In this document: positions 29,718 through 32,789 of the stretch, in pieces | Layout: the number at the start of each line of letters is the position of its first letter | How positions within the stretch are numbered: the stretch's first letter is position 1 | NCBI RefSeq assembly: GCF_022343685.1 | Contig: NZ_CP092123.1 | Coordinates: 2,914,001-2,978,000 of the forward strand | Length of the DNA: 64,000 nt | DNA from: Marinobacterium sediminicola | GTDB taxonomy: Bacteria; Pseudomonadota; Gammaproteobacteria; Pseudomonadales; Balneatricaceae | Reading direction: 5' to 3' | Position numbers and translations under genes: made by a program | Notes under the pieces: model-generated | Databases searched by the model: none | What the model saw: the letters and a program-made list of their open reading frames with translations, nothing else | What the model was told of the DNA's origin: nothing

Positions 29718-30323
29718 TCAGCTGTTTTTAATGATTATCGACTGCTGCCAGATCGGGATATCGAACTGTTGCAACAGAGCGGCCGTTTGCATCAGCGGCA
29801 ACCCTACAACTGCAGAGTAACTGCCTTCGATGCCGCGTACCAGCACCGCTCCCAATCCTTGTATGCCATAAGCTCCGGCCTTGTCGCAAGGCTCCCCGGT
29901 GCGCCAGTACGCCCGACAACGGGCCTCATCCAGTTCGACAAAGGCAACGTCCGTAATGACTGTCTCGACACACTGCCGCTGATCATCCACAAGCGCGACC
30001 GCAGTCATGACCTGATGCTGACGACCAGACAGCAGCATCAGCATGCGCACCGCATCCGCTTCATCGACCGGCTTGCCCAAAATGCATCCATCCACAACCA
30101 CGCTGGTATCTGACCCCAATACGACCGTGCCCGGATTAAGCTGCTGGCAGGCGCGCGCCTTTTCCAGTGCCAATCGTTCCACATAGGCACGCGGGGGTTC
30201 ATCCGGCAGTGGGGTTTCATCAATATCCACCGGACGGCAGGTAAACTCTACACCGATCTGAGACAGAAGCTCACGACGACGCGGAGAAGCAGATGCAAGG
30301 ATCAGTTCAGGCATAACACTCAT
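29718..30323 (-). CDS. maf: Maf family nucleotide pyrophosphatase
   Basis: A 201-residue Maf/YhdE-type protein, with [17 protein letters not shown] at the N-terminus and [14 protein letters not shown] near residue 75. These enzymes hydrolyse dTTP/UTP or modified nucleotides and have been linked to septation. The ATG at 30323 overlaps the mreD stop (ATGA) and is preferred; the ATG at 30314 would give 198 residues and better matches many annotated relatives. The reading frame is also open further upstream within mreD, without support. Confidence 0.93.
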
Positions 30324-30808
30324 TGAATATAGAAGGTGTGGCGCACGGCGCGCAGCAGAAGGTACAACCAGGGCCAAACCAGGGCACTGACCAGGGACGG
30401 CAACAGAAACAGCAGGGAGTCACCGGTGGTGCCCGTGATGCTTTGCATCCAATGAAACAGCAACTGATTGATACCGACCAGTACCAGCACCATCAGGGAC
30501 TGCTGCCAGAGCGGGAACATGCGCAGGCGTTTATACAAGACAAGCACAAAAAAGGCGATCAGGGTGAGGGAAAGAGCACTCAGACCCAGCACGCTGCCGC
30601 GTACCACGTCGAGCAGCACACCGAGCATGAAGGCACTGCCCAACCCGACACGGTGCGGCAGCGCCATCACCCAGTAAATCAAAATCAGGACGATCCATTC
30701 CGGCCGCGCCCACACGAGCATTTCCGGCAACGGCATCTGGCTAAGTACCATGCCGACCAGAAAGGTGGCAAAGATAATCAACCCGCCGCCGCCACGCTGT
30801 TCAGCCAT
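30320..30808 (-). CDS. mreD: Rod shape-determining protein MreD
   Basis: A 162-residue inner membrane protein with about five membrane segments. The ATG at 30808 overlaps the mreC stop by eight bases and gives the usual family length; longer reading in the same frame is within mreC. MreD binds MreC and is part of the elongasome that guides cell wall growth. Low sequence conservation is normal; order mreB-mreC-mreD is decisive. Confidence 0.93.
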
Positions 30809-31655
30809 CCACGGCCCCTTTTGCAAGCCCGGCGGGTTCAACGCGGTAATCCACCAGCAGCAGGTGGCGGCTGCGATCCAAACGCGCTGTTGGCTCAGCC
30901 TTGACAAGCGTAAACGGACGACCTGGGTCCCGGATCACTTCCTTGACTCGTGCCACCGGATAGCCTCGCGGGAAACGACCGCCCAGCCCGGATGTTACCA
31001 ACAGGTCACCTTCGCGGATATCAGCCGTATCCGGCACATGTTCCAGTTCAAGCTCATCCAGCGCGCCCTTGCCGAGAGCGATGGCGCGAAAACCGTTGCG
31101 ATTGACTTCAACCGGAATGGCTGAGCGGGCATCGGTGATCAGCATGGTGCGGTTGGTATAGTGAGCCAGTGATACCACCTGTCCCATGACACCGCCGGCA
31201 TCCAGCACCGGCTGGCCGGCAAAGACGCCGTCCTCAGAGCCTTTGTTCAGAATCACTTCGTGCTGGAAAGGGTCAGGGTTCACGCCGATCAACTCAACCA
31301 GACGCGTTTCAGGCTCCAACCGTTCACCGGCCCCCAAAAGCTCACGCAAGCGGATATTCTCTGCCGCCAGCGCTGCCATCTGTTGAACCTTACGCTCTAG
31401 CACCAGCGCTTCGGATTTGAGTGCCTCGTTCTCCCGCACCAGACTGGCACGATCGACCAGCACATCCGAAAGGCTGTCTGCTACCCGGGTAGGAATATCG
31501 ACGACCCACTGCAGCGGCGTCACCAACAACGAAAGCCAGGCACGCCCCTCTTTCAATTTCGGCCAGTTCAAGTCGGCCACAATCAGCAGGCCGGCCAGCA
31601 CGACCAGCAGCAGAAACAGACGGCGCGGAGAGCGACCGCGGAAAATGGGATTAAT
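30801..31655 (-). CDS. mreC: Rod shape-determining protein MreC, apparent ATT start
   Basis: A 284-residue bitopic protein with N-terminal membrane helix, coiled coil (about 65-110, with LVRENEALKSEALVLERKV) and a periplasmic beta domain with EVILNKGSEDGVFAGQPV. The first ATG/GTG-type codon in the frame is GTG at 31601, inside the membrane helix, with no basic N-terminus. Upstream, the frame continues to an in-frame TGA at 31661-31659; between them is ATT at 31655, six bases after GGAGG. Starting there gives the family-like N-terminus PIFRGRSPRRLFLLLVV. I therefore annotate an ATT start. A start at 31601 (266 residues) is the alternative. Confidence 0.88.
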   Translation of the reverse strand: MNPIFRGRSPRRLFLLLVVLAGLLIVADLNWPKLKEGRAWLSLLVTPLQWVVDIPTRVADSLSDVLVDRASLVRENEALKSEALVLERKVQQMAALAAENIRLRELLGAGERLEPETRLVELIGVNPDPFQHEVILNKGSEDGVFAGQPVLDAGGVMGQVVSLAHYTNRTMLITDARSAIPVEVNRNGFRAIALGKGALDELELEHVPDTADIREGDLLVTSGLGGRFPRGYPVARVKEVIRDPGRPFTLVKAEPTARLDRSRHLLLVDYRVEPAGLAKGAVDG

Positions 31656-31668
31656 GGCTCACCTCCCG
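31656..31668 (-). promoter_or_regulatory. Strong Shine-Dalgarno deciding the mreC start
   Basis: On the minus strand GGGAGGTGAGCC directly precedes ATT. GGAGG ends six bases before the ATT, ideal spacing. No ATG, GTG or TTG lies at a suitable distance in the mreC frame; the stop TGA overlaps this site and excludes any start further upstream. Confidence 0.75.

Positions 31669-31730: not shown

Positions 31731-32789
<1,059 letters not shown>

Follow-up and report, generated by a model that had tools for sequence, protein, structure and literature searches.

The mreC gene of Marinobacterium sediminicola appears to be translated from an AUU codon behind a near-perfect Shine-Dalgarno (SD) sequence, and both the position and the conservation of this start are supported by comparison with relatives. 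The codon is an ATT (positions 31655-31653, minus strand) of the window, a 64,000-nucleotide stretch of the genome (NZ_CP092123.1, 2,914,001-2,978,000). A start at AUU had been proposed in a preliminary description of the sequence and is now strongly supported: the homologous codon is ATT in all seven other Marinobacterium genomes, and ATT, ATC or ATA (AUU, AUC or AUA; together AUH, as opposed to the usual starts ATG, GTG and TTG) occupies this place in 198 of the 231 distinct start regions compared and in 70 of 89 families. Because ATT is kept across the genus and AUH in most families, and 166 of the 198 AUH sequences have no usual start between the upstream in-frame stop and the AUH codon, the ATT is neither a private oddity nor a sequencing error for ATG, an alternative that the same description had raised.

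Start site, coding signature and membrane anchor

Counted from the ATT, the mreC coding sequence comprises 284 codons (30801-31655, minus strand), and its product is assigned to the MreC family by curated models over their cut-offs (PF04085, E 1.3e-39; TIGR00219, 195.1 bits against a cut-off of 92.75) and by its position between mreB and mreD. On the minus strand, GGGAGGTGAGCC (31667-31656) is followed by the ATT and by AAT CCC ATT TTC CGC. The extended SD, GGAGGTGA (31659-31666, minus strand), contains a GGAGG that ends 6 nt 5' of the ATT, with a duplex energy of -11.6 kcal/mol to ACCUCCUUA; all SD energies given here are RNAduplex values to this sequence. An in-frame TGA within the SD (31661-31659) shuts the frame two codons 5' of the ATT, and the first usual start codon is a GTG (31601-31599, minus strand) at residue 19, within the membrane helix. 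The coordinates first assigned to the ATT, the TGA and the GTG were all confirmed on the minus strand. Since the near-perfect SD would bring the AUU into the ribosomal P site, and no usual start codon could serve instead, translation of mreC is predicted to begin there, presumably with initiator fMet-tRNA reading the AUU. The gene would thereby join infC, pcnB and sigR, having a codon other than ATG, GTG or TTG at SD distance without a usable usual start.

The SD/ATT motif was rejected as evidence on its own, being close to chance in both the window and the genome. GGAGGTG-N4-ATH occurs twice in the window (mean expectation 0.45; at least two occurrences in 6 of 100 shuffles) and at 17 sites in the genome, where the same pattern read backwards occurs at 6. 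Across the genome, 36 sites match at a spacing of N3 or N4 (19 and 17, respectively); of these, that of mreC alone opens a frame of more than 100 codons with no usual start upstream or within the next few codons. It is conservation, rather than the motif, that lifts the putative AUU start beyond chance, because in each of the seven other genomes of the genus the ATT is preceded, in the corresponding position, by an SD of the type GGAGGTG or GGGGGTG.

The 18 codons between the ATT and the GTG had been taken for the conserved MreC N-terminus, and this identification holds. Differences at the three positions of codons 2-14 number 38, 12 and 182 among eight Marinobacterium sequences, against 237, 231 and 243 upstream, and 314, 24 and 1561 among 25 Pseudomonas-type sequences, against 2371, 2250 and 2319 upstream; the start codon is invariant at its first two bases in both sets. 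The N-terminus xKPIF or xKPLF recurs in E. coli MreC, whose annotated start at this point is an ATG. In each of the 198 AUH sequences the AUH codon follows, by 4-10 nt, the end of an SD core of 3 to 5 bases; the core has 4 or 5 bases in every sequence except three. Median SD energy is -8.4 at the AUH codon, against -1.7 at the nearest usual codon downstream (n=185, restricted to codons 8 or more positions away). Additionally, the best 19-residue hydropathy window covers residues 13-31 (2.40), compared with 0.73 from residue 19, and a start at the GTG would leave approximately nine hydrophobic residues, cutting the membrane anchor. An AlphaFold model with a helix at residues 10-30 was given no weight (mean pLDDT 64, residues 1-10 mean 51, shallow alignment of 14).

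From this coding signature, the weak downstream SD and the loss of the anchor, the GTG at 31601 was rejected as the start, and it is very improbable that MreC begins at a downstream usual codon with the upstream codons untranslated or unimportant, even though one Pseudomonas aeruginosa record (CP123788; locus L141, 267-1131) sets the start of mreC at a GTG within the membrane helix. The frame 5' of that annotated GTG reads TAG GAG CGG ATC ATC AAA CCG, in which the ATC behind GGAG fits the conserved mreC start. A start further upstream, with the isoleucine codon internal, was likewise rejected and is hardly conceivable: a usual codon does occur upstream in frame in 31 of the 198 AUH sequences (one further stretch ended before any stop), but the great majority have none, the TGA of the window would require stop readthrough, and the sequence 5' of the SD is unconserved within the genus.

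Spread of AUH starts and strength of the SD

A first search found mreC in 37 of 38 relatives. The 231 distinct start regions later assembled divide into AUH (198: ATT 116, ATC 68, ATA 14), ATG (17), GTG (8), TTG (5) and three that the script left unassigned, which by eye are an ATT (L084), an ATG one codon upstream (L031) and an ambiguous case (L022). Dropped before this count were eight loci with ambiguous starts (in eight families, so that 89 of 97 families are counted) and two without the motif (L030 and L223, from one genome, with ATG); nine starts were shifted by hand, four of these to AUH. By the first locus of each family, 70 families have AUH, 13 ATG, 4 GTG and 2 TTG, and two of those counted under ATG and GTG (f6 and f193, respectively) hold AUH loci too. 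Where other sequences carry ATG, GTG or TTG at the homologous codon, this marks the AUH position as the start.

Genera with AUH include Marinobacterium, Nitrincola, Neptuniibacter, Pontibacterium, Pseudomonas, Stutzerimonas, Cellvibrio and Halomonas. The gene starts with ATG in E. coli, Klebsiella and Aeromonas, with an annotated GTG behind AAGGA in Acinetobacter, and with GTG, by annotation only, in Legionella adelaidensis. The 114 survey loci were the better-scoring among the matches listed (genomes with a match: 337 of 370 and 292 of 293), and the wider sampling favoured better-scoring families; three lower-scoring orders were therefore added and read by eye. AUH was found in 0 of 25 loci in the order of G138, in 0 of 24 in the order of G219 (where one of 25 loci, L414, was dropped for an unclear start) and in 17 of 20 in the order of G192, where three loci (L423, L428 and L432) also have a usual codon in frame upstream. 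The start is thus conserved in the genus and in most families yet absent from two orders, and since these lineages do without it, it is therefore not indispensable. At 20 loci of other classes of the phylum and in two named alphaproteobacteria, where starts were only partly resolved, no AUH-plus-SD pattern was seen by eye. Combined, these counts describe the AUH start as a trait that is widespread among Gammaproteobacteria (as GTDB defines them) but can be replaced, and not a class-wide one.

Within the genus and the Pseudomonas-type set (25 starts: ATT 19, ATC 5, ATA 1, ATG 0), the data support a start that changes only among AUU, AUC and AUA. ATT makes up 81 of 112 starts versus 651 of 1498 internal isoleucine codons (p 3e-9, kinship between sequences ignored). 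A tree of MreB and MreC with 134 rows requires no fewer than 17 changes of codon class.

The strength of the SD differs with the class of the codon. Median SD energy is -7.15 kcal/mol in AUH families (n=70) versus -1.7 kcal/mol in ATG families (n=13; p 1.9e-4), with exceptions on both sides: 4 of the 13 ATG families lie at or below -6, and 14 of the 70 AUH families do not reach this value. One genus (g511, family f80; L422, L427 and L431) has an ATG without an SD (-0.9, +0.5 and -0.4), while its AUH sisters have SD energies of -7.4 to -9.5 and 17 of 20 genomes of that order combine ATT or ATC with a strong SD. The mreC of E. coli encodes the same protein, with the N-terminus MKPIF, from the same place in the operon, and differs by its ATG and a weak SD (-3.0, rank 27 of 36 genes in a 45-kb region). 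In that same region the E. coli mreD (L308, 18388-18876) has a GTG behind the strongest SD of the 36 genes, so that a weaker start codon goes with a strong SD within the operon of mreC.

Phylogenetic pairing was run first on a class tree of 79 rows, where eight supported pairs (3.3 in which the usual codon had the weak SD, 0.0 the opposite, 4.7 without a difference) gave no significant link (median p 0.25 at a cut-off of -5 and 0.625 at -6). After rows were added to reach 134, the comparison of ATG with AUH gave nine supported pairs, with 5.8 for, 0.0 against and 3.2 showing no difference at -5 (median p 0.03 at -5, 0.125 at -6; with GTG and TTG included, 0.125 and 0.375). A within-order tree alone held four codon changes and was underpowered. 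The link between SD and codon class after pairing is one-sided but borderline, and no more than suggestive of a trade-off at mreC between the strength of the codon and that of the SD.

Comparison with known non-canonical starts

The kind of start found here is known already. The pcnB gene of E. coli begins with AUU, as mreC does, and has another function. The infC gene starts with ATT in E. coli and with ATC in Streptomyces, according to PMC5472188, and resembles mreC in having an AUH codon behind a good SD. The infC product, however, is the factor that discriminates among starts, hence a feedback loop; the product of mreC is a cell-shape protein that does not judge start codons, and no feedback is evident. 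In the genome of M. sediminicola, infC starts with ATC behind AGGAGAT (L282, near 2030-2026, minus strand; IF3_C match at G000:C1:2815019-2815276), so that the best-known target of IF3 regulation departs from the usual start codons in this genome as well.

The nearest parallel to mreC is sigR of Streptomyces, for which PMC5472188 describes a GTC start (GTC in 32 of 34 genomes, GTT in 2) behind the ribosome-binding site AGGAGGTG and repression by IF3. The gene shares with mreC a conserved non-canonical start, the same extended SD and misannotation in genomes, and one operon partner is held below another, an unequal output of the sort proposed below for mreC. It differs in that sigR uses GTC, in one genus, and encodes a stress sigma factor, whereas AUH starts of mreC occur in many families of another phylum. 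Among the papers listed in searches of one open-access library, nothing relevant to AUU starts of mreC was found; new within that scope are the membership of mreC, the occurrence of its AUH start in many families and the apparent trade-off of codon against SD.

Proposed effect on MreC and MreD output

The reading that best fits these observations, and that we consider reasonably probable, is that the AUU start and the strong SD fix the initiation rate of MreC, and with it that of the overlapping mreD, at a level that is low compared with MreB. The weak AUH codon would cap initiation and the strong SD would set a steady low rate, such that one mreBCD transcript could yield much MreB, from its AUG, and little MreC. 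The mreB gene of the window (31731-32768, minus strand; NF010539 and TIGR00904 over cut-off) starts with ATG and ends with its stop 75 nt from mreC. Of 75 loci, 62 have ATG at the extrapolated position of the mreB start and none has AUH, with 13 not assigned. ATG with hardly any SD could also give a low rate; that ATG lineages often have no good SD is expected if the low rate, not the codon itself, is selected.

MreD would follow the output of MreC. In the window, mreD (30320-30808, minus strand; TIGR03426, 112.3 bits against a cut-off of 34.85) begins with an ATG at 30808 that overlaps the mreC stop by 8 nt (30801-30808), and 103 of 110 AUH loci likewise have an open frame running across the end of mreC, at the place of mreD. 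The overlap hints at coupled synthesis of MreC and MreD, and with the frame overlap so common the mreC start may govern both proteins. Coupling to mreB through a short gap was unsupported (median gap 73.5 nt, range 19-232, in 44 loci with the mreB end found by motif).

Dosage data from E. coli, as quoted in PMC7793260, give approximately 180 copies of MreC, about twice the number of MreD and PBP2-RodA; "low" MreC would accordingly refer to MreB only. The same source describes cells deformed when MreC or MreD is overexpressed alone, and an effect of MreC that is countered by co-expression of MreD. The preliminary description had offered two purposes for the AUU, namely to keep MreC low relative to MreB or to tie its level to initiation factor status. 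The first is favoured, as an interpretation of the stronger SD found with AUH, the ATG of mreB and the deformation of E. coli by excess MreC.

The second would make AUH an IF3-responsive control as in infC, where scarce IF3 or a changed initiation machinery raises MreC and MreD and ties wall elongation to translation capacity. Its supports are the retention of AUH over many families, the ATC start of infC in the same genome, the repression of infC and sigR by IF3 through non-canonical starts (PMC5472188) and the pairing of AUU with CAU, which IF3 disfavours in vitro according to PMC10158994. Several lineages have ATG, GTG or TTG with mreC still beside mreB, and the reading is somewhat weakened because several of these swapped AUH for ATG with hardly any SD, a combination that could still hold the rate down but would give up discrimination by IF3. 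Regulation of mreC through the level of IF3 is possible by analogy, and as an account of the AUH start it is doubtful. We hold as equally tentative, and unlikely, its extension to a conserved translational gate in many families of GTDB-sense Gammaproteobacteria including Pseudomonas, at which IF3 status or the supply of free ribosomes would set the supply of MreC and MreD and so wall-elongation activity, and which the ATG lineages would have replaced by a weak SD. For the low fixed rate proposed here, discrimination by IF3 against AUH is likely to be the physical basis of the cap, and regulation by IF3 level would not be required. According to PMC12350097, which cites another paper, AUH codons belong to the seven strongest starts in E. 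coli.

It is also rather improbable that AUH is a tolerated ancestral accident with no selection on output. A near-perfect SD might compensate for the codon, and the strong SD may simply be what AUH needs; the link between SD and codon class is only suggestive after phylogenetic pairing. Against an accident, ATG lies one base away yet is absent from the Pseudomonas-type starts, and ATT is commoner at the start than among internal isoleucine codons.

The genes known to retain a non-canonical start are few, and mreC, central to morphogenesis, joins them with a start retained in many families. In genomes of this kind, gene prediction restricted to ATG, GTG and TTG may lose part of the MreC membrane anchor, as in the P. 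aeruginosa record described above. The mreC of E. coli, with its ATG, is not representative, and the AUH start offers a testable mechanism for the unequal output of mreBCD.
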